Both the position numbers and the translations under genes were made by a program. The notes under the pieces are model-generated. The model worked only from the letters and a program-made list of their open reading frames with translations. It had not been told where the DNA came from and did no database searches. Positions 26,346-40,973 of a DNA stretch of 64,000 nucleotides are shown here, piece by piece; the first letter of the stretch is position 1, and each line of letters begins with the position of its first letter. This stretch comes from Rhodospirillales bacterium (lineage in GTDB: Bacteria > Pseudomonadota > Alphaproteobacteria > Rhodospirillales > Defluviicoccaceae): positions 1 to 64,000 of the forward strand of contig JAEULH010000010.1 of the NCBI GenBank assembly GCA_016793925.1. Direction: 5' to 3'.

Positions 26346-26419
26346 TGGGGGATAGTTTAGCGGTAGAACTCTCGGCTCTGGACCGAGCGACCCTGGTTCG
26401 AATCCAGGTCCCCCAGCCA
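26346..26419 (+). tRNA. tRNA-Gln (anticodon CUG)
   Basis: 74 nt with an encoded CCA end. The acceptor stem is TGGGGGA (26346-26352) with TCCCCCA (26409-26415), the anticodon arm is CTCGG-CTCTGGA-CCGAG giving anticodon CTG, and the T arm is CCTGG-TTCGAAT-CCAGG. The first pair is U1-A72 and the discriminator base is G, both typical of glutamine tRNAs. The D arm GTTTAGCGGTAGAAC is normal. Confidence 0.97.
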
Positions 26420-29571: not shown

Positions 29572-29862
29572 GGCAGGCGCCCTTCTCGCCTGTCATGTGA
29601 TCCCGGGCGAGGTCATGGAAGCCGACCTCAAGGGCAGGTCGACGGAGCCCCGAGCGGCCGGACGGCGAAAGATGCGCGAAGCGCTCTGCCAAGCGGGTGG
29701 TGATCTCACTTTGAAAACATCGCTCTGAGACACTACCGCCAAGCGCGCATTCTTTGCGTCGCGCCGAAACCTGCGCCATTATGGCTGGAACGAAAGCGCG
29801 CGAAGCGGATCGGGAAGCGTGCCGCGCAAGCCGGGTTTTGTGTGGACCAGAGGAGAGCATCG

Positions 29863-30405
29863 ATGAAAGCATTGGCGTGGGCCGCCGTTCTTGCCGTCGC
29901 GGCGCCGATCGCGCTTGCCGCCCCGGCCACGCGCGCCGCCGACCTCGTTGAGACGGCAGCCTCGACTGATCGCTTCGACCGCCTCCTTGCCGCGGCCAAC
30001 GCCGCCGGCCTGACCGGGACACTGCGCGGCGATGGTTCCTACACGGTCTTCGCGCCGACCGACGAGGCTTTCAACACCCTGCCCTACGAAGTCTACCGGT
30101 CGCTTCTTCAGCCCCAGAACAAGGCCAAGCTGGCGCAGGTGGTCCGCTACCACGTCGTCCCCGGCAAGTACACGGTCAACGATCTCTCGGGTAAGCAGAC
30201 CTTCCTGACAACCGCCCAGGGGCAGACGATATTCGTCGACGGCGTCTCCAGCGGCAGCCTTACGATCAATGAAATCGACACCACGACCTACAACGCCAGG
30301 GAGATGGCGAACGCACTTCCCGGCGTCGGCGGCAGCAAGGGGATGGACATCCCCGCCACGAACGGCGTGATCATTCCGATCGACCGCGTCTTGCTGCCGC
30401 AGTAG
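29863..30405 (+). CDS. Exported fasciclin (FAS1) domain protein
   Basis: 180 aa, with a signal peptide (MKALAWAAVLAVAAPIALAA) and one FAS1 domain: DLVETAASTDRFDRLLAAAN, YTVFAPTDEAFNTLP (H1 box), YHVVPGKYT (H2 box) and NGVIIPIDRVLLP. Such proteins act in adhesion or at the cell surface. The ATG at 29863 has a strong AGGAG site 10 nt upstream. It stands just before the RpfC-like kinase (175-bp spacer) on the same strand; adhesion is a plausible output of that quorum-sensing block, but a regulatory link is not shown. Confidence 0.92.
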   Translation: MKALAWAAVLAVAAPIALAAPATRAADLVETAASTDRFDRLLAAANAAGLTGTLRGDGSYTVFAPTDEAFNTLPYEVYRSLLQPQNKAKLAQVVRYHVVPGKYTVNDLSGKQTFLTTAQGQTIFVDGVSSGSLTINEIDTTTYNAREMANALPGVGGSKGMDIPATNGVIIPIDRVLLPQ

Positions 30406-30579: not shown

Positions 30580-33216
30580 ATGATCCTCCGCGAGAAGCTT
30601 GGCCGGCTCCGGCGACGTAAGGACAGCGAGCACGAGCAGGCCCTCGTCCGCATCGTCATCGTCGCCATTCTGTTCGCCTATGTCGACGCCCCGACGATCC
30701 TGCATATTGGCGCTCGCCCCTCATCGCCGGTCCTGGTCTGGCTTGGCGGCGCCTATCCGGTTCTGTCCCTGCTCATCTTCGCGCTGATTCTGCTGCATCC
30801 GGCGCCGTCGCGCGCGCGCCGTGCCACGGCGATGGTGACGGACTTCGCAGTGCTCTCCGGCTTCATGCACCTCGGCGATGCGGGCGCGGCGCCCTTCTAC
30901 CCGGTCTACCTGTGGATTGCCTTCGGCAACGGCTTCCGCTTTGGCCTGCGCTACCTTGCGGCGTCCGTCGGATTGGCGGCGGCGGGCTTTCTCGCGGTCG
31001 CCCTGACGACGGAGTTCTGGCTGCGCGAATGGCCGCTGGCGCTCGGACTGTTCGCCGCCCTTATCGTCTTGCCCGGCTACGCCGCCACGCTCATCCGCCG
31101 GCTCACGGAAGCCAAGGCGCAGGCCGAAGCGGCCAGCCAGGCAAAGACGCGCTTCCTCGCCGGCGTCAGCCACGAGCTGCGAACGCCGCTCAACGCGATC
31201 ATCGGCACCAGCACGCTGATGGGCGACACCCGTCTCGATCCCGAGCAGCGCGAAATGGTGCACACGGTCAAGACGGCCGGGACCACCCTGCTTGCGCTGA
31301 TCGACGACATCCTCGACGTCTCGCGGATCGAGGCGAACCGGGCAACCCTCAACACCACCGACTTCGACCTGCACGCGGCCCTCGCCGACGTCCTTTCCAT
31401 ATTCCGTCCCGTTGCCGCGACGAAGGGGCTGCGGCTTGTGGCGTCGGTCGATCCAACGATTCCATGGCGGCTGCACGGGGACGTCAAGCAGCTCCGCCAG
31501 ATCCTGACAAACCTCGTCGGCAACGCGATCAAGTTCACCGAGGCGGGTTATGTCGTCGTCGCCGCGGACCCGGGCGACGAGGACCCGGGAGGCAGCAGCG
31601 ACGGTCGCGGCGGCGACGAAACGGGTCAAGGCCCCACCCGGCGCATCCGGATTGCCGTTCGCGACAGTGGCATCGGCATTCCGCCACACCAGCAGGCCCG
31701 GATTTTCGAGCAGTTCGCGCGCGGCGACGACGCCGTCAACCGCCGCTTCGGGGGTACCGGTCTGGGTCTGTCCATCTCGCGCGGCCTGGCCGAACTGGCC
31801 GGGGGCACGCTGAAGGTCGAAAGCGCGCCCGACGAAGGGAGCACGTTCACCCTCGAGATCCCGTTCGAGACCGCGCGCACGCCTGAATCGCTTCCCGACG
31901 CCGCGCCCCAGCAGGTCACGGTCATAGGCGAGGACGGAGCCTTCAACGACCGACTGCGCCATCTGCTTGCGAACGAAGACGTGCACGTTCTCGCCGGACG
32001 CGATCCGGACGCGGCGCTGGACGGCGGCGCGCCGGCCGCTTTCGCTTCCGACATCCCGCCCGTACTCATCATCGATAGCCGCGAGCGTCGCGACGACAGC
32101 GTCGTCGCGACGCTCGCGCGGAGCCGCCGTGGCGACGTCTGCGTCATGGTCCGCAGACCCGACGGCGAGAGCGCGCGGGCGACGCTTGCCTACAAGTGGG
32201 TCAGAGGGACGGGCGCCGGCCCCGCCTGCGTGGCGGTTTTGCCCTGGCCGCCATCCGACCCGGCGCTGCGCGGCGCCCTCCACGCAGCCGCCAAATTTAC
32301 GCAGGCCGCGGAACGGGCGGAAGCGCCGCGGTTGAAGGACGACGAGCCTCAGCCACGGCGCGGCGACGGCCTGCGGGTCCTGGTCGCCGAGGACAACCCG
32401 GTCAACCGCAAGGTTCTGGCCCGTATCCTCGACCGCGCCGGCTTCGATTCGGAGCTAGTCGAAAGCGGCGAAGACGCTTTGGAGGCTCTGGCCGAAACGA
32501 GCTTCGACGCTGTTCTGCTCGACATCAACATGCCCGGCCTGAGCGGGCTCGACGTGGTCAAACTGTACCGGATGGGCGCGCTCGGCCAGCCGCACATCCC
32601 GATCATCGCGCTGAGCGCCGATGCGACCGTCGAGATGCGGGACGCGGCCTTGGCCGCCGGCATCGATGTCTACCTGACAAAACCGGTCGAGCCGGACCGT
32701 CTGGTTGGCGAGATCCTGGCCCTGGTCGGTCCGGATCATGCGCGCGTCGTCGACCCGCGACGCGGCGATCTGACGACAGAGCCGCCGACCGAACCGACCA
32801 CGGAGGATCATGCGGAGCCCGTCGGGAGCCAGCCGCCCGGCGACGACGAGATTGTCCTCAACCGCGCGGCTCTGGCCGCTCTCAACGCCTACAGCGGGCC
32901 GGACGAGGACTTCGCCCTGGCCGTACTGCGCGATTTCCTCTCCAACACCGAACAACTCATGACGCAGGTCGCCGATGCGGCGCGTGTCGGCGACGCGGCC
33001 GCCTTTCGCGCCGCCGTCCACGCACTGCGCGGAACGGCTGGCAACGTCGGCGCCGACGCCATGCGCCAGTTCTGCCAGGAGCTTCAGGGAATGACGGTCG
33101 AACGCCTGAAGGCCCACGGCGACGCGTACGTCGATCGGCTGGGGCACGAGTTTGCCCGCCTGCGCCGCGACATCGGCCGATATCAAGTGGAGCGGCAACG
33201 CGCAGCGCCGGTCTGA
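30580..33216 (+). CDS. rpfC: RpfC-like hybrid sensor kinase with Hpt (DSF receptor candidate)
   Basis: 878 aa. There are five predicted TM helices (about 21-40, 51-72, 82-118, 126-146, 151-172), HisKA with His198 in [18 protein letters not shown], HATPase (N box [14 protein letters not shown] boxes RDSGIGIP and GGTGLGLSI), a degenerate receiver-like segment (about 445-570), a true receiver (about 595-715, [11 protein letters not shown]) and a C-terminal Hpt domain with HALRGT. This order and the [17 protein letters not shown] segment match RpfC, the DSF sensor. It is convergent with the rpfF-like gene, as in Xanthomonas. It should phosphorelay to a separate receiver, and the REC-GGDEF-EAL protein at 34694 is the nearest candidate. 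Ligand identity is inferred from context. Confidence 0.85.
32080..32118. repeat. Perfect 18-bp inverted repeat inside the rpfC-like gene
   Basis: The arm 32080-32097 pairs with 32101-32118 without mismatch around a 3-nt loop (AGC). It lies in the region coding for the degenerate receiver-like segment and encodes an Arg/Asp/Ser-rich surface stretch. Strongest hairpin noticed in any coding region of the window. Confidence 0.9.
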
Positions 33217-33324
33217 CCGGGACTGCGGCCAGCCGGCGCCACGCGCGGAGCCCTCTCGGGGCGCCTGGGCGCAGGGTCGACACACTTCGCTGCCGGACAG
33301 GACGGTGCCCGGCGGTTGCGCCTG

Positions 33325-34362
33325 TCAGGCGTTCGCCGCGACCGACCCGGCGGCCAAGGTCGACCAGCGCCGGTCCTGGGCCAGGGCAAGGTGTCGCATG
33401 CGGCGAAGGTCCCGCGACGACAGCATCAGGGCCGTATCGACCCAGACATCGACGACCTGCATCAGTTCCTCGCGGCTGACGGGATTGACGATCCGGCGGG
33501 TTTGCAGCATCGCCTGCCGGGCCAACCCCTTCCGCTCGAATGCGGCAACGTGCTCGTAGATCGCCGCGGGGCCGCGGGCGTCGTCGACGACAAGGTCGAC
33601 AACGCCCATCTCGCAGAGTTCGTCGGCCGAATAGACGCGGCCGCTCAGGATCATCCGTTCCGCCTGCGCAGCGCCGAGCCGCCGCGACAGGAAGCTGTAG
33701 GCGCCCATGCCAGGAAACAGGTTGAACAGCACCTCGGGCAGGCCGAACTTCGCCGAGCGCTCCGCGATGATGACGTCGTTGGCAAGCGCGGCCTCGAACC
33801 CGCCGCCCAGCGCGTCGCCTTGGACAAGGGCGATCGTCGAGATCGGCAAGCCGAAGTTCGTCGCGATGCGATACTGACCCTCGGTGCACGCATGGGCGTA
33901 ACGAACCAGAGCATCGCGATCGCGCCGTTCGATCCGGTCGAGGAACAGGGAGAGGTCGCCGCCCAGGTTGAAGATGCCGGTGAGCTGCGACGAAAGCACG
34001 AGATGATTGACCGGCGGCCGGCCCTGCCTGCTGCTTGCGAACACGCACTCGAGCGCATCGGCGAGCGTCTTCATGTCGGCGAGCAGCCCCGGGGTGAAGC
34101 TCGGCCGCTTCCTCGGGGTCATCGACCACCACAGGATCCGCTGGTTGCGGTCGAAGGTGACCCGCAGGTTATTAAGCGTGAAGACGTCGGCGGTCGATGC
34201 CGGAAAGTCGAGGCCGGCGCCGGCTTCGGAACCGGCCGGGCGCCCGCTCAGGAAGGCAAGCAGGTCGCTGCCTGGGATGTCGCTGCTCTCGCCGTTCATA
34301 GGCGCAACGACAGTGTCGGCGGAAGCGGTGCGGCTTGCGGGTGTCATGGCAACGTACGACAT
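33325..34362 (-). CDS. rpfF: RpfF-like DSF synthase (crotonase fold)
   Basis: 345 aa, enoyl-CoA hydratase superfamily. The stretch GDALGGGFEAAL followed by ERSAKFGLPEVLFNLFPGMG is the RpfF signature; Glu190 and Glu210 are 20 residues apart, as are the catalytic pair Glu141/Glu161 of Xanthomonas RpfF. RpfF makes cis-2-unsaturated fatty acid signals from acyl-ACP by combined dehydratase and thioesterase activity. The N-terminus is about 50 residues longer than in Xanthomonas and looks disordered. The ATG at 34362 has a GAGAG site. It is convergent with the RpfC-like kinase and divergent from the GGDEF-EAL regulator. Confidence 0.88.
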   Translation of the reverse strand: MSYVAMTPASRTASADTVVAPMNGESSDIPGSDLLAFLSGRPAGSEAGAGLDFPASTADVFTLNNLRVTFDRNQRILWWSMTPRKRPSFTPGLLADMKTLADALECVFASSRQGRPPVNHLVLSSQLTGIFNLGGDLSLFLDRIERRDRDALVRYAHACTEGQYRIATNFGLPISTIALVQGDALGGGFEAALANDVIIAERSAKFGLPEVLFNLFPGMGAYSFLSRRLGAAQAERMILSGRVYSADELCEMGVVDLVVDDARGPAAIYEHVAAFERKGLARQAMLQTRRIVNPVSREELMQVVDVWVDTALMLSSRDLRRMRHLALAQDRRWSTLAAGSVAANA

Positions 34363-34693
34363 GTTCTCTCCTAGACGTTTTTGGTGAAATTCCCAGCTTG
34401 TTTTTCTTACCCCATATGCAGTAAATTATATCTGAAATGGATTGATTTTGCTGTGACAAGCAGCACACTGTGCATGCAAAATCGCGAGCGGTGATTGGAC
34501 CGCCAAAATGATTATAAACGGTGCGCGCGGGGCGTTTTCCACGGCACGCGGATGGGGTATTTTGTCGATGAGACTCGGAGTCAAGCCGAAATCCGGCCAT
34601 GCTTCGCAGTGATCGGCAGGAGATGATCGCTGCTCGCACGCAGGGGCCGGACCCCTTACACTGGAACAGGGCGGGCTGGGAGACGATGCGGAA
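34363..34693. promoter_or_regulatory. 331-bp AT-rich divergent promoter region (rpfF / GGDEF-EAL gene)
   Basis: The most AT-rich spacer of the window, with no gene. It holds TGTGA-N6-GCACA at 34452-34467, one base from the CRP/Clp consensus TGTGA-N6-TCACA, and just after it GCAC-ACT-GTGC (34463-34473) and the palindrome TGCATGCA (34471-34478). Clp, a CRP-family regulator responsive to cyclic di-GMP, controls DSF outputs in Xanthomonas; the link here is inference. Confidence 0.5.
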
Positions 34694-37288
34694 ATGACCG
34701 TCGTTTACATCGTCGACGACCAGTCCATCAATTTGCGCATCCTCGCCCGCTTTGCGCAGTCGCTCGGCGATGACGTTCGTGTCCTGACATTCGACGACCC
34801 CGTCCGCGCTCTCGCAGCGTTCGCCGCCGACCCGCCCGACCTGATCGTGACCGACTATGTCATGCCGGGCATGGACGGTGAGGCCTTTATCAGCCACTGC
34901 CGACAACATCCGGTGGCCGACGATGCGCCGATCATCGTCGTGACTGCCTACGAGGATCGCGAATTCCGCTACCGCGCCCTGGACACCGGCGCCACCGACT
35001 ACCTCCTGAGCCCCGTTGACGGCCGCGAATTCTGCATTCGCGCGCGCAATCTCCTCAGCCTGCGACGCCATCAGTTGGCCGAACGCGAGCGCGCCACAGC
35101 GCTGGAAGGCGAGCTTGAAAGCACGCTGCGTCGTCACGCCGAGGCAATCCGGCGCAAGGAGGAGCAGCTCCGCCGGGTCGTGAATACGGTTCCGGCGCTG
35201 ATTTCGGCGACGGATCGCGACGGCGTCGTCTGCCTGCTGAACTCCGGGTACCAGCAGTACGGGATTTCTCTGGCGCCGACAGCGACCCGTCTGACGATGG
35301 GCGACCTGTTCGGCGAAACCTACGGCGCTCGTCATCGCGCCTTCGATGCGCAGATCCTGGCCGGCGGCGAGGCGCCGGGCGCTTTCGAGGAATATGTAAC
35401 GGATGCCGCCGGCGAACCGCGGGTGCTGCTGACGACCAAGGCCCCGCTCACCGCAGGGGACGCGACAGCGGACGGCGTGGTGACCGTTTCCCTCGACATC
35501 ACCGAGCGCAAGCAGCACGAACAGGCCGTTGTCGAAAGCGAGCAGCGCTTTCGCGCGCTCGTCGAAGGCTCCGTACTCGGCATCCTGATCGAGCGCGACC
35601 GTCGACCTCTGTTTGTCAATCCCATGCTGGCGCGCTTGTTCGGCTACACGGACGAGTCGGAGATCCTCGCCATGGATAGCGTCGACACGCTGTTCCCCGA
35701 GGACGAGCGCGAGCGCATCGGCCAGATCCGGCGAACCACCCTCGCCGGCGACACGCATGGCGAACTGACGGAGTTCGGCGGCCTGAGAAGAGACGGCACC
35801 ACCATCTGGCTTCAGGCGCAGGCGCAGCGCGTGAGCTGGAAGGGCAAGAGCGCGGTGCAAATGACGATGGCCGACGTCAGTCTCCGCAAGGCCTACGAAC
35901 TGCAACTGCAACAGCAGGCCAACTTCGACTCCCTGACCGGGCTGCCGAATAGGCTGTTGATGATGGACCGCCTGCGCGGCGCGATCCTCAGCGCGGGACG
36001 ACACGGCCACAGAGGGGCCGTCCTCTTCATCGATCTCGATTATTTCAAGAAGATCAACGACACTCTCGGCCACGCCGCCGGCGACGAGGTGCTCCAGCAG
36101 GCAGCGGAGCGGCTGACGAGCTGCGTCCGGGGCGAAGACACGGTCTCGCGGATCGGCGGCGACGAGTTCACCATCATCCTCCCCAACATCGAGACGGCTG
36201 CCAACGCCGAGCCCGTCGTGCAGAAGATTCTGCAGGCCTTCGCACACCCGTTCCTTCTGTCCGACCTTGAAGCGGTGGTTTCGGCGAGCATCGGCATCAC
36301 CGTCTTTCCCGACGACGGCAACGATCCCGAGACACTGATGAAGAACGCCGACGTGGCGATGTATCGATCGAAAGAGCGCGGTCGTAACACGTTCGAATTC
36401 TTCAGCGAGTCCCTGAGCGAGCATGCCAGCGAACAGATCAGGATCGAGACCTCGCTCCGCCACGCGCTTGAGCGCAATGAAATCAGCCTTTGCTTTCAGC
36501 CGATCTTCGACGTTCGCTCGACCGAATTGGTCGGGGCGGAAGCGCAAGTGTGCTGGGACAATCCGGACCTCGGACACGTCGTCCCCGAGCGGTACCTGAC
36601 ACACGCCGAGGAAACCGGGTTGATCGTGCCGATCCGGGCCTGGGCCCTGGATGAGGCCTGCCGACAATGGCGCTACTGGCACGCTGCCGGCTTGTCGCTG
36701 GGCCGCCTCGTCGTCGACATGTCCCCCGGCCGCAAGAACGATGCGAACCTGCCCGAAGTCGTCGAGGCGGCCCTCGGCCGCCACGCCATCCCGCCAGAGT
36801 GTCTTGAACTCGGCATCGGCGAGCGGAGCCTGCTCCATCGCGGCGACGAGCTGGCAAACGGCCTCCGGGGGCTGGCCTCGCTCGGCGTCCAGATCGCAAT
36901 CGACGAGTTCGGCGCCGAAGACGGCCCGCTCACGCAGATCCGCGACATCCCGGTCGCCGCGATCCGGATCGCCGCCGTGTTTTTATCGGCAGCGCTCGGT
37001 GACAGAAGACAGGCACGGATCATGGAGGCGATCGTTGCGATGGCCCACCGCCTCAGCATTCGTGTGGCCGCGGTCGGCGTCAACAGCGAGGACCATTTCC
37101 AGTTCGCGCTGTCCTGCGGCTGCGACCTCGCCCAGGGGCTGTACTTCGGCCAGCCCCTGGCGGCGGCCTCCTTCGAAAGCTGGGCCTGGGAGCAGATGGC
37201 GTCGGGCCGGACGACGGCGGCGGCGGTAGCCGGCGCCGACGGATCGCGGCTGCTAACGCGGCGAGCCTGGCCGAATGCTTCCCGTTAA
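34694..37288 (+). CDS. Response regulator with PAS-PAS-GGDEF-EAL (DSF circuit output)
   Basis: 864 aa. An N-terminal receiver (VYIVDDQSINLRILARF, phospho-acceptor Asp54 in VTDYVMPGMDG) is followed by a coiled segment, two PAS domains (about 155-280 and 285-400), GGDEF (about 410-575) and EAL (about 595-840). The GGDEF motif itself is intact at residues 488-492 with an RxxD inhibition site (RGED) five residues before it, so diguanylate cyclase activity is likely. The EAL domain reads GAEAQVCW instead of the EAL signature (Glu616), and the DDFGTGYSS loop is replaced by DEFGAEDGP, so phosphodiesterase activity is probably lost. The receiver resembles that of RpfG. Confidence 0.88.
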   Translation: MTVVYIVDDQSINLRILARFAQSLGDDVRVLTFDDPVRALAAFAADPPDLIVTDYVMPGMDGEAFISHCRQHPVADDAPIIVVTAYEDREFRYRALDTGATDYLLSPVDGREFCIRARNLLSLRRHQLAERERATALEGELESTLRRHAEAIRRKEEQLRRVVNTVPALISATDRDGVVCLLNSGYQQYGISLAPTATRLTMGDLFGETYGARHRAFDAQILAGGEAPGAFEEYVTDAAGEPRVLLTTKAPLTAGDATADGVVTVSLDITERKQHEQAVVESEQRFRALVEGSVLGILIERDRRPLFVNPMLARLFGYTDESEILAMDSVDTLFPEDERERIGQIRRTTLAGDTHGELTEFGGLRRDGTTIWLQAQAQRVSWKGKSAVQMTMADVSLRKAYELQLQQQANFDSLTGLPNRLLMMDRLRGAILSAGRHGHRGAVLFIDLDYFKKINDTLGHAAGDEVLQQAAERLTSCVRGEDTVSRIGGDEFTIILPNIETAANAEPVVQKILQAFAHPFLLSDLEAVVSASIGITVFPDDGNDPETLMKNADVAMYRSKERGRNTFEFFSESLSEHASEQIRIETSLRHALERNEISLCFQPIFDVRSTELVGAEAQVCWDNPDLGHVVPERYLTHAEETGLIVPIRAWALDEACRQWRYWHAAGLSLGRLVVDMSPGRKNDANLPEVVEAALGRHAIPPECLELGIGERSLLHRGDELANGLRGLASLGVQIAIDEFGAEDGPLTQIRDIPVAAIRIAAVFLSAALGDRRQARIMEAIVAMAHRLSIRVAAVGVNSEDHFQFALSCGCDLAQGLYFGQPLAAASFESWAWEQMASGRTTAAAVAGADGSRLLTRRAWPNASR

Positions 37289-39235: not shown

Positions 39236-39530
39236 CTTCTGCCGTTGAAGCGACGCGGGATCCCCTCGCCGCTGTCACGACCGAGGCTTAGAGCAAGGAC
39301 GATCCCGGCGCAAGCCACGCGGGCCGGACGATCTGGGCGGATCCGGCCGACGCGGCGCATGGGGCGGGCATAAGCCGCCGGCAACCACCGCGTAACCATT
39401 CCGTCCTACATTCGGGCGATGCATGCCGCGCCCGAGGGCACCGACGCCCAGATCCCGACACCCCCCGCGACGACCGCGGCGTCGCAAGGCCTCTGCCTGC
39501 ATCGCCGGACCGGCCGCTACGGAACCACGC

Positions 39531-40973
39531 ATGCGCCCGGGCGCTGAGGGCGCGATTTTCCTCCTGCCGAAGACGGACGGCGGCGGGGAAGGCGCAGAAG
39601 CCGGCCGCACAACAGGCGACGACCGTGCGGCGGAGGCGGTCGCGGCCGTGGCCGCAGCCGTTGCCGCTATCGTGGTTCAGGACGAACCAGCGGCCCTGTC
39701 GCGGACGGTCGCCAGGGAAGCGGCGCGGCTGCTCGACGCCGAGCGGGCGACGCTCTTTTTCCTCGACGACGCAGGTTCAACCCTGACCGCAATCCCGGAA
39801 GGCAACGGGGGCGAGGCGTCGATGCTGCGCCTGCCGCGGGGTCGCGGCCTGCCGTGGGCCGCGCTCGCCGCCGGGCGCGTCGTCAACACCCCGCAGGCCT
39901 GCGCGCATCGACACCTGGAAGGCGGAGGCGATGAGCACGTCGGAGGCCTCTTCCGATCCGCTCTGGCCGCGCCGATCGTGTCCGGGGCTGGTCCCCTCGG
40001 CGTCCTCGAAGTGGCCGACAAGGCGCACGGGTCTTTCGGCCGGACCGATCAGCACCGCCTCGCCGCCCTTTGCGCGGCGATCGCCGCGGCGGTGGAAAAT
40101 GCGAAGCTTCTCGCACACCTGACGGCCGAAAAGTGCGTCAACGCGATGATGTCGCGCTACATGGATCCGCGCCTCGCCACGCTCCTCCTTGAAGGCGACG
40201 GCGACGCGCTCTGCGGCCGCCCCGTCCGGGCGACGATGCTGTTCTGCGATCTGCGCAATTCGACGGCGCTCGCCGAGGACCTTGGGCCCGAGGGCATGGT
40301 TTCGCTGCTGAACGAGTTTTTCACCCGTGTCGCCTCCTGCCTGCGCAGCGAGGGCGGCATGCTCGACAAGTTCATCGGCGATGCGGTGCTGGGCGCCTTC
40401 GGCGTCCCCTTCTCCGGCGAGGACGACGAGGATCGCGCTGTGCGCGCCGCGCTCGCCCTGACCGCGGCCCTTCGCCAGTGGAACGAAACGCGCCGGGCCA
40501 AGGACCTGGCGGCCCTCCGGATCGGCGTCGGGATCAACACGGACATCGTCGTCGCCGGCAACGTCGGCTCGCCCGAACGGATGGACTACACGGTCACCGG
40601 CGCCGGGGTAAATCTGGCGGCCAGGCTGGAAAAGGCCTGCAAACGGTACGGCGCCGAGATCCTTGTCAGCGGCCACACCGTCCGGCGGCTGAGGGGCCGC
40701 TACGCAATCCGCCCGGTGGACGACATCTGCATCCCCGGCAAGGTCGACCCGGTCCGAATCTACGAAGTCGTCTCCGATCATGCCGCGCAGGCCGGAGCCA
40801 ATCTGCATGATGCGCTCAGCGCATTCTCGCGCGGCGTGGCGCTCCGCCGTCAGGGCCGGCACGGCGCCGCCGAAGCCTGCTTTCGTACCTGCCTGTCGCT
40901 CGACCCGGGCGACCGGGGCGCGGCGATACAGCTCCAGGCCTGCCGCCGATCCCTCGGCGCCGCCGGATCGTGA
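39531..40973 (+). CDS. GAF-domain class III adenylate/guanylate cyclase
   Basis: 480 aa. A GAF domain (about 40-190, with LLDAERATLFFLDDAG) is followed by a class III cyclase domain (about 215-410). The two metal Asp residues are in TMLFCDLRNST and KFIGDAVLGAFG, the substrate-specifying Lys is in MLDKFIGD, and the late Asn/Arg pair in GAGVNLAARLEKA. The C-terminal 60 residues resemble a TPR hairpin (FSRGVALRRQGRHGAAEACF). It makes cAMP (or cGMP) under control of a small ligand or redox bound by GAF. The ATG at 39531 is chosen; the frame is open further upstream but arginine-rich. This could feed the CRP-like site near rpfF. Confidence 0.9.
   Translation: MRPGAEGAIFLLPKTDGGGEGAEAGRTTGDDRAAEAVAAVAAAVAAIVVQDEPAALSRTVAREAARLLDAERATLFFLDDAGSTLTAIPEGNGGEASMLRLPRGRGLPWAALAAGRVVNTPQACAHRHLEGGGDEHVGGLFRSALAAPIVSGAGPLGVLEVADKAHGSFGRTDQHRLAALCAAIAAAVENAKLLAHLTAEKCVNAMMSRYMDPRLATLLLEGDGDALCGRPVRATMLFCDLRNSTALAEDLGPEGMVSLLNEFFTRVASCLRSEGGMLDKFIGDAVLGAFGVPFSGEDDEDRAVRAALALTAALRQWNETRRAKDLAALRIGVGINTDIVVAGNVGSPERMDYTVTGAGVNLAARLEKACKRYGAEILVSGHTVRRLRGRYAIRPVDDICIPGKVDPVRIYEVVSDHAAQAGANLHDALSAFSRGVALRRQGRHGAAEACFRTCLSLDPGDRGAAIQLQACRRSLGAAGS

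Follow-up and report, generated by a model that had tools for sequence, protein, structure and literature searches.

A DSF-type signalling locus of a Rhodospirillales bacterium with a predicted cyclase-only output regulator

In the two diffusible signal factor (DSF) pathways that have been studied, the signal lowers cyclic di-GMP (c-di-GMP), with RpfG as the mediator in Xanthomonas and RpfR in Burkholderia (PMC4504480, PMC13220807; here and below, papers are cited from excerpts of their text). Here we describe a locus of this type from a Rhodospirillales bacterium of the Defluviicoccaceae, found in the first 64,000 nucleotides of contig JAEULH010000010.1 of assembly GCA_016793925.1 (this whole stretch is the window). 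Three neighbouring genes encode a hybrid sensor kinase resembling RpfC, a crotonase resembling RpfF and a response regulator with REC, PAS_4, PAS, GGDEF and EAL domains (Table 1). The locus falls within known RpfF/RpfC DSF signalling; its alphaproteobacterial form is widespread and little described in the literature searched, and a change specific to the lineage of the window predicts a reversed output.

With Xanthomonas rpfF-rpfGHC the locus shares a homologous synthase, the domain order and DSF motif of the kinase, convergent rpfF and rpfC genes and an RpfG-type receiver. It differs in that the output part is PAS-GGDEF-EAL with a damaged EAL domain rather than HD-GYP, that the regulator gene lies on the far side of rpfF, and that no rpfG was seen in the genome. 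As in the RpfF/RpfR system of Burkholderia and Cronobacter, which uses the Burkholderia diffusible signal factor (BDSF), rpfF adjoins the gene of a PAS-GGDEF-EAL protein; unlike RpfR, the window regulator starts with a receiver, is paired with an RpfC kinase and has a damaged EAL domain. Leptospirillum rpfFCG is likewise a DSF cluster outside the Xanthomonadaceae, but has an HD-GYP RpfG and a uni-directional gene order (PMC8357829). In Xylella fastidiosa, which uses DSF, the response regulator PD1671 has degenerate GGDEF/EAL domains; going by the title of the paper, the degeneration affects both types of domain, in contrast to the window regulator, which keeps its GGDEF domain (PMC4374697).

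We put at roughly two in three the probability that the locus consists of RpfF, RpfC and RpfG-type homologues that would signal by a cis-2-unsaturated fatty acid to a regulator with an intact GGDEF and a damaged EAL domain, such that high cell density likely raises c-di-GMP. The crotonase would release the signal from acyl-ACP (acyl carrier protein), by analogy with RpfF, and the kinase sensor, a predicted six-helix bundle of the cyclase type, would encounter this acid at the membrane, close to the N-terminal RxDSExxQ motif of the sensor, whose predicted position is cytoplasmic. Phosphate would pass from His198 to Asp648 and His814 of the kinase and on to Asp54 of the regulator, all of which are present, and the receiver and PAS_4 module would control the GGDEF domain. 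At low signal, the receiver of the kinase may keep the synthase switched off, as happens in Xanthomonas, a suggestion drawn solely from REC similarity. Enzyme activities, the direction of regulation and the ligand are those that we infer from sequence. An earlier note on this DNA had described a complete DSF-type locus that would be notable in an alphaproteobacterium; the DSF-type set stood, and it is not rare in that class. Two unusual features had escaped it, namely the loss of EAL catalytic residues throughout a lineage and a predicted sensor fold that resembles the membrane domains of nucleotide cyclases.

Synthase, sensor kinase and their pairing

A check of the open reading frames in the window confirmed three uninterrupted genes. 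The stops of the convergent kinase and crotonase genes are 108 bp apart, and the starts of the divergent crotonase and regulator genes 331 bp. The sender-receiver-output neighbourhood proposed in the earlier note was strongly supported, its genes, domains, coordinates and convergent kinase and crotonase included.

The crotonase scored 347.6 bits against the NCBI family NF006452, well above the cut-off of 177. Its top PDB chain was RpfF (3m6m_A, 192 bits), the next three matches, at 186, 175 and 175 bits, were a crotonase family protein, RpfF and a putative enoyl-CoA hydratase, and the fifth dropped to 63.7 bits, far below the first four. In a tree of 55 rows, 49 RpfF-type sequences were split from six ordinary crotonases of the same genome with support of 100/100, and the grouping with ordinary hydratases that would have undone the RpfF reading did not appear. 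The 49 rows include four synthases that adjoin rpfC and an HD-GYP rpfG in genomes of the same phylum (labelled Xanthomonas-type here: one of the four passes the cut-off of the RpfF equivalog NF053515, and three of the four share its family code). The first glutamate of the catalytic pair was kept in 131/131 locus homologues and the second in 124, with Asp in the other seven (L145 and L154, duplicates of L009 and L059, and identical synthase rows were dropped from the residue counts); both were kept in 120/120 nearest homologues among the matches listed, the window included. Glu190 and Glu210 are indeed 20 residues apart, as previously noted, but the pair was rejected as an identifier of RpfF because an ordinary hydratase of the same genome (L001, one of the six) carries it too. 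Taken together, the crotonase is an RpfF homologue, firmly so as homology, and a predicted cis-2-unsaturated fatty acid synthase.

Two other loci (L141 in genome G006 and L143 in G001) have a second rpfF-like gene adjoining a different kinase-receiver protein of ~600 residues, and these second copies form their own clade in the crotonase tree. Close rpfF relatives were also found in records labelled Terriglobia, Deltaproteobacteria, Zetaproteobacteria and Thioalkalivibrio (L033, L072, L049, L066, L088), where bin errors are possible.

Residues 1-175 of the kinase match the RpfC membrane region of six Xanthomonas-type loci (L129-L134) at 76-95 bits, and a sensor alignment of 34 rows, two of them Xanthomonas-type, contains 19 invariant columns. 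The transmembrane (TM) region therefore aligns with RpfC end to end, which sustains the likeness to RpfC first proposed. Identity of the window sensor is 36% to L133 and 35% to L134, both from loci ordered rpfG(HD-GYP)-rpfC-rpfF. It is the sole match of its type in the source genome; it belongs to no Pfam family, and a profile search found no PDB relative. The kinase has R13, D15, S16, E17 and Q20 in the arrangement RxDSExxQ, that is, all five DSF-sensing residues, and the RpfC of Xanthomonas campestris requires R15, D17, S18, E19 and Q22 for DSF sensing (PMC5391125). The strict motif was present in 111/120 nearest kinases among the matches listed, the window included (in this and the later motif count, miscalled or cut starts were scored as misses, and L145 and L154 were left out). 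The phosphorelay residues His198 (HisKA), Asp648 (receiver) and His814 (Hpt) are in place. Among 60 matches listed, the nearest natural receiver-only chain to the kinase receiver was the REC domain of RpfC (3m6m_D, 2.7e-22), from an entry that contains RpfF as well. We regard the kinase as a firm RpfC homologue and a predicted DSF sensor.

Synthase and sensor travel together. A complete kinase was present in 68 of 80 named loci found via the crotonase, convergent with rpfF in 63 of the 68, and 58 of these 63 pairs lie within about 200 bp of each other. In one draw of 386 other genomes from the same class, rpfF (E 1e-40) occurred in 26 and an RpfC-type sensor (E 1e-5) in 24; 23 genomes had both, three rpfF only and one the sensor only (Fisher p 1e-32). 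In the 23 genomes with both, the two genes were convergent neighbours in 17, on separate contigs in five and far apart in one. The arrangement is thus far beyond chance, given the 63/80 convergent loci and this co-occurrence.

We consider it improbable that the locus instead senses fatty acids of the membrane or of a host without a self-made signal. On that view the crotonase would serve metabolism, as an acyl-ACP thioesterase or hydratase, and the kinase would sense fatty-acid stress. RpfF-type enzymes release ordinary fatty acids too, and a complete kinase was not seen in 12/80 loci, although some of these contigs end early. The membrane domain of the adenylyl cyclase Rv1625c, moreover, answers common C18 acids (PMC12505454). 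The tight pairing of synthase and sensor and the retention of the RpfC-type DSF residues in the lineage argue against this reading.

The partners at the 68 kinase loci were REC-PAS-GGDEF-EAL in 50, REC-HisKA in seven, short or other REC proteins in eight and REC-HD-GYP in two, with none at the remaining locus. A search of relatives for the three-gene order thus recovered the same set, with a kinase and a GGDEF-EAL partner at 50/80 loci, and the three-gene DSF-type set occurs widely across Alphaproteobacteria. The earlier note held that a cyclase replacing the HD-GYP protein would be notable; the idea that GGDEF-EAL is a rare replacement there was rejected, since it is the usual form (50/80). 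Among the nearest relatives rpfF occurred in 7/59 other genomes, so its distribution is patchy. A KEGG-based statement that alphaproteobacteria contain RpfC-RpfG exists (PMC8895600); an alphaproteobacterial rpfF-rpfC-GGDEF/EAL cluster was not found among the literature matches listed.

Some variants were seen along the way. Many genomes of family f66 (1.2-3 Mb) carry rpfF, and in two 13-kb stretches from this family (L137, L160) rpfC adjoins rpfF and an RpfG-type receiver was not found. At two loci from the class of the window (L155, L157), rpfF adjoins a GGDEF-EAL protein without an RpfG-type receiver, an RpfR-like arrangement. Inquilinus and a record titled Mycobacterium sp. KBS0706 have one or two extra short proteins between kinase and regulator; these consist of an RpfC-type sensor and the start of HisKA and recall rpfH (L011, 4145-5068; L012, 13734-15481; L021, 13683-15792).

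The output regulator and its EAL domain

The receiver of the regulator falls in one clade with the receivers of RpfG and of REC-GGDEF-EAL, REC-HisKA and REC-PAS_4 proteins (support 99/93, 45 rows). The controls were 13 RpfC receivers, all of which formed a separate clade (100/98), and seven receivers labelled other; the 130 columns gave little resolution inside the clade. This placement bears out the proposal that the output gene is the adjoining receiver protein. The regulator was not filed as RpfG because its output part is PAS-GGDEF-EAL and not HD-GYP; by its position in the tree, it is the RpfG counterpart with a swapped output domain. No REC-HD-GYP protein was seen in the source genome (3.3 Mb, 95.8% complete), in which the single HD-GYP hit was unmatched by the receiver queries. 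Other partners by Pfam were also unusual, namely REC-PAS_4 alone in Roseomonas and kin, REC-PAS-HisKA_2 in Skermanella, and REC-PAS_4-HisKA; the bare REC-PAS_4 outputs, at Roseomonas-type loci L032, L034, L042, L045 and L047, have no catalytic domain by Pfam. PAS_4 is the type of domain by which RpfS binds DSF (PMC4504480, PMC5391125); that the regulator might have a further DSF site in its own PAS_4 domain was considered.

We read 11 EAL-site residues from an alignment of 59 REC-GGDEF-EAL proteins, with an RpfR-type protein (L138) as reference and the duplicates L145 and L154 left out. All 11 were kept in 58/58 other proteins, and seven were replaced in the window: Arg by Cys, Asn by Asp, Glu by Gly, the second Asp of DD by Glu, Lys by Arg, the Asp two positions after that Lys by Ala, and the Glu of AEGVE by Val. 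The residue set of an EAL phosphodiesterase is therefore incomplete. The EAL Glu and the Gln are retained, and the domain still scores 174.5 bits in Pfam. Thus, although both domains of the "GGDEF-EAL regulator" named in the earlier note are present, the EAL domain is not a normal one.

The loss is shared by a lineage. Among the first 84 of 120 homologues listed, 14 lineage proteins (61-100% identical, the window included) had no intact EAL site; the Arg of xRW and the Glu of AEGVE were lost in 13/13 readable ones, and several lacked Asn, Glu, Asp or Lys too. The site was intact in 69 of the next 70 homologues, the other being a fragment without the EAL region. The fourteenth, the closest regulator (P0126, 89% identical over 71%), is truncated and was dropped as evidence of EAL loss because its tail, like that of the kinase P0242, looks frameshifted; for both proteins the longest contig is given as 244963 bases. 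In a quick tree of 46 regulators built with the EAL columns excluded, the 14 lineage proteins sat on a single branch (Shimodaira-Hasegawa approximate likelihood-ratio test, SH-aLRT, 100), corresponding to one change. The ratio of EAL to GGDEF divergence was 2.30 inside the lineage versus 1.50 outside (P0126 and pairs with a GGDEF identity of at least 97% were omitted, and the two groups are unequal in depth). The GGDEF site and RxxD are intact in 14/14 lineage proteins, and the window has the GGDEF motif, RxxD and the metal- and base-binding segments of a cyclase. Its lineage looks committed to c-di-GMP synthesis: the regulator keeps the cyclase site and has lost the phosphodiesterase site, and its output is predicted to be that of a cyclase only. 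High cell density would likely raise c-di-GMP because the GGDEF site is complete and 7/11 EAL residues are lost, and the sign would be reversed because DSF lowers c-di-GMP through RpfG in Xanthomonas and RpfR in Burkholderia; relative to RpfG, the output sign has likely flipped.

Relatives outside the lineage could go either way, since the EAL site is retained in them and the exact GGDEF motif in most (51/58). An altered GGDEF with an intact EAL domain, the reverse of the window lineage, was seen at L017 (SGAAF), L031, L036, L050, L056, L060 and L074; with 7/58 so altered, a few relatives may have pruned the cyclase half. Seven RpfR-like proteins (L138-L140, L155, L157, L158, L162) had no receiver match and kept the EAL site in 7/7.

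There is a small chance that the degenerate EAL domain is a c-di-GMP-binding module of the LapD/FimX kind, which would make the regulator a receptor or a feedback-controlled cyclase. The fold is kept, the EAL Glu and Gln are retained in the window, and the solved relatives include FimX (4j40) and a "cyclic dimeric GMP binding protein" (3pjw). Set against this, the xRW Arg, which we take to contact a phosphate of c-di-GMP, is lost in all 13 proteins, and the GGDEF site and RxxD of the regulator are intact, unlike those of LapD or FimX. Least probable of all is an output as in Xanthomonas and Burkholderia, with DSF lowering c-di-GMP through a changed EAL domain that is still an active phosphodiesterase: the open frame is full-length in 13/14 lineage proteins, the Pfam score is as given above, and BDSF activates the EAL side of RpfR (PMC4504480), but the xRW Arg and AEGVE Glu are lost in 13/13, with further losses in several, and EAL diverges faster than GGDEF in the lineage.

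Several observations weigh against a DSF-type circuit with a cyclase output. The crotonase reached 222 bits against NF053515, whose cut-off is 550; this cut-off is narrow, since merely 3/398 genomes of the phylum reach it versus 61 with a match at E 1e-50 (the source genome counted). The strict DSF motif was present in just 25/91 kinases of the fetched loci, where its Gln is frequently Met, so that signal or binding may differ. In the receiver of the window regulator the usual lysine is a Ser, and phosphorylation may consequently act in an unusual way; the same Ser occurs in 23/23 GGDEF-EAL, 7/7 HisKA and 7/8 short or other alphaproteobacterial outputs examined, and RpfG receivers have Lys or Arg there in 8/8. 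Phosphorylation may either activate or restrain the cyclase. The ratio of GGDEF to REC divergence was 1.08 in the lineage versus 0.72 outside, so GGDEF too evolves somewhat faster. Lastly, two further EAL domains of the genome are altered (that of C94 and one on C54), and another, on C25, carries a single conservative change. Among the literature matches listed, there was no DSF output that had kept GGDEF and lost EAL.

Sensor topology and a predicted likeness to cyclase membrane domains

The published scheme of RpfC shows five TM helices, with the N-terminal sensor putatively in the periplasm (PMC5391125). Counted over 34 sensors, Lys and Arg averaged 6.85 for the N-terminus, 2.76 for loop 2-3, 1.44 for loop 4-5 and 2.88 for the segment that follows the last helix, compared with 0.47, 0.15 and 0.35 for loops 1-2, 3-4 and 5-6, and the sum for the N-terminus and loop 2-3 exceeded loop 1-2 in 34/34. 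Segment limits were set by the analyst, and the N-terminus is long and also has 5.03 acidic residues; loop 2-3 is the cleaner sign, with 2.76 basic versus 0.29 acidic residues. A second sensor alignment repeated the pattern. Averaged hydropathy gave six maxima, and a single-sequence plot gave four to five. The model of a Xanthomonas-type sensor resolves six helices, and in that of the window sensor (predicted local distance difference test, pLDDT, 93.0) helices 3 and 4 are assigned as a single run (78-121). From averaged hydropathy, charges and one of the two models, RpfC-type sensors probably have six TM helices. Thus, of the kinase architecture given in the earlier note, HisKA, receiver and Hpt held, and the five TM helices probably become six. 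With six helices and both ends inside, the DSF motif would face the cytoplasm.

For both models, the best structural matches were cyclase membrane domains (ImcA, and AC9 or AC8), which were also the only matches of more than 165 residues for either model among the matches listed. Foldseek gave no significant E-value for either model, and the cyclase rows were 8-11% identical in sequence. A profile (HH) comparison of the sensor with class III cyclases was weak (score 12.6 over 179 columns, probability 1.3%); the score nonetheless exceeded those of 96/96 scored decoys (maximum 8.3), which were single sequences, 96 of 102 having been scored. The cyclase profile drew on 30 fetched loci from the same class of bacteria, seven usable membrane domains and six used ones (L216 was left out), and 1/7 single cyclases beat all decoys. 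None of the genome's GGDEF proteins had four or more TM segments, and no six-TM protein was therefore seen among them. Compared with the six-helix domains of ImcA, a diguanylate cyclase, and of Cya/Rv1625c, AC8 and AC9, the window sensor differs in having a histidine kinase as effector, as well as in the low identity and non-significant Foldseek values. We treat the fold link as a structural lead of weak significance.

The lead has a context. In Cya, cytosolic pockets that its authors cautiously call putative ligand sites have the N-terminal residues R43, R44 and R46 at their entrances (PMC9433096). Oleic acid is reported to act on the membrane domains of AC2, 3, 7 and 9 (PMC11606603), the membrane domain of Rv1625c is reported to answer C18 monounsaturated acids (PMC12505454), and a receptor role for the membrane domains of adenylyl cyclases is a standing question (PMC12414865). 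CqsS and LqsS are six-TM histidine-kinase receptors of lipophilic signals that were earlier compared with cyclase anchors, a comparison that leaves out RpfC and DSF (0 occurrences in the main text of PMC4821796). A link between RpfC and the cyclase fold was not found among the literature matches listed.

It is quite possible, though we would not bet on it, that the published picture is right, with five TM helices in RpfC-type sensors and an N-terminal hook in the periplasm to catch DSF, and that the cyclase match reflects only a common helix arrangement. The charge distribution in the 34 sensors favours six helices with the N-terminus inside, the Xanthomonas-type model shows six, alignments of more than 165 residues were with cyclase membrane domains for both models, and the text searched of PMC5391125 contains no topology experiment ("PhoA" occurs 0 times). 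More speculative, and on balance unlikely, is the idea that RpfC and the membrane domains of ImcA, Cya and AC8/AC9 form one superfamily of six-helix fatty-acid receptors. RpfC would be its quorum branch, with the motif at the cytoplasmic face, the location of the Cy1/Cy2 pockets in Cya, and the circuit of the window lineage would be sign-reversed, coupling crowding to c-di-GMP synthesis.

Feature coordinates and implications

Table 1. Features of the DSF-type locus, with positions in the window
Feature	Position	Strand	Basis
rpfC-like hybrid sensor kinase, 878 aa	30580..33216	+	Pfam HisKA, HATPase_c, Response_reg, Hpt
RpfC-type membrane sensor domain, aa 1-188, predicted six TM, N-terminus inside	30580..31143	+	alignment, model, charge count, fold matches
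RKDSEHEQ, aa 13-20, DSF-sensing motif spacing as in Xanthomonas RpfC	30616..30639	+	sequence
rpfF-like crotonase, predicted DSF-type synthase, 345 aa	33325..34362	-	Pfam ECH_1, NCBIfam, PDB match, tree
Glu190 to Glu210, catalytic glutamate pair	33733..33795	-	sequence; not diagnostic alone
Divergent intergenic region, rpfF-like gene/regulator, 331 bp	34363..34693	.	gene coordinates
Output regulator REC-PAS_4-PAS-GGDEF-EAL, 864 aa	34694..37288	+	Pfam Response_reg, PAS_4, PAS, GGDEF, EAL
RpfG-type receiver of regulator, Asp54, usual REC lysine replaced by Ser	34694..35053	+	REC tree, residue reading
GGDEF domain with intact catalytic motif and intact inhibitory site RxxD (RGED...GGDEF)	35906..36397	+	residue reading
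EAL domain, 7/11 catalytic-site residues replaced	36452..37156	+	alignment

A scan of the locus for promoters and terminators gave no excess over shuffled sequences; one sigma-70-like match lies at 34453-34482, in the 331-bp region. Upstream of the kinase gene, on the same strand and 174 bp away, lies the gene of a fasciclin-domain protein (29842-30405); a protein with GAF, class III nucleotide cyclase and TPR domains is encoded 2 kb downstream of the regulator (39423-40973), and a tRNA-Gln (CTG) gene lies at 26346-26419.

If the predicted circuit is true, the sign of a quorum signal would be evolvable through the swapping or pruning of one output protein; a single receiver clade carries HD-GYP, GGDEF-EAL, histidine kinase and bare REC-PAS_4 outputs. 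If RpfC shares the cyclase fold, its published topology would need re-testing, and a receptor with an encoded fatty-acid ligand, mapped residues and an adjoining synthase would become a model for the question of whether cyclase membrane domains are receptors.

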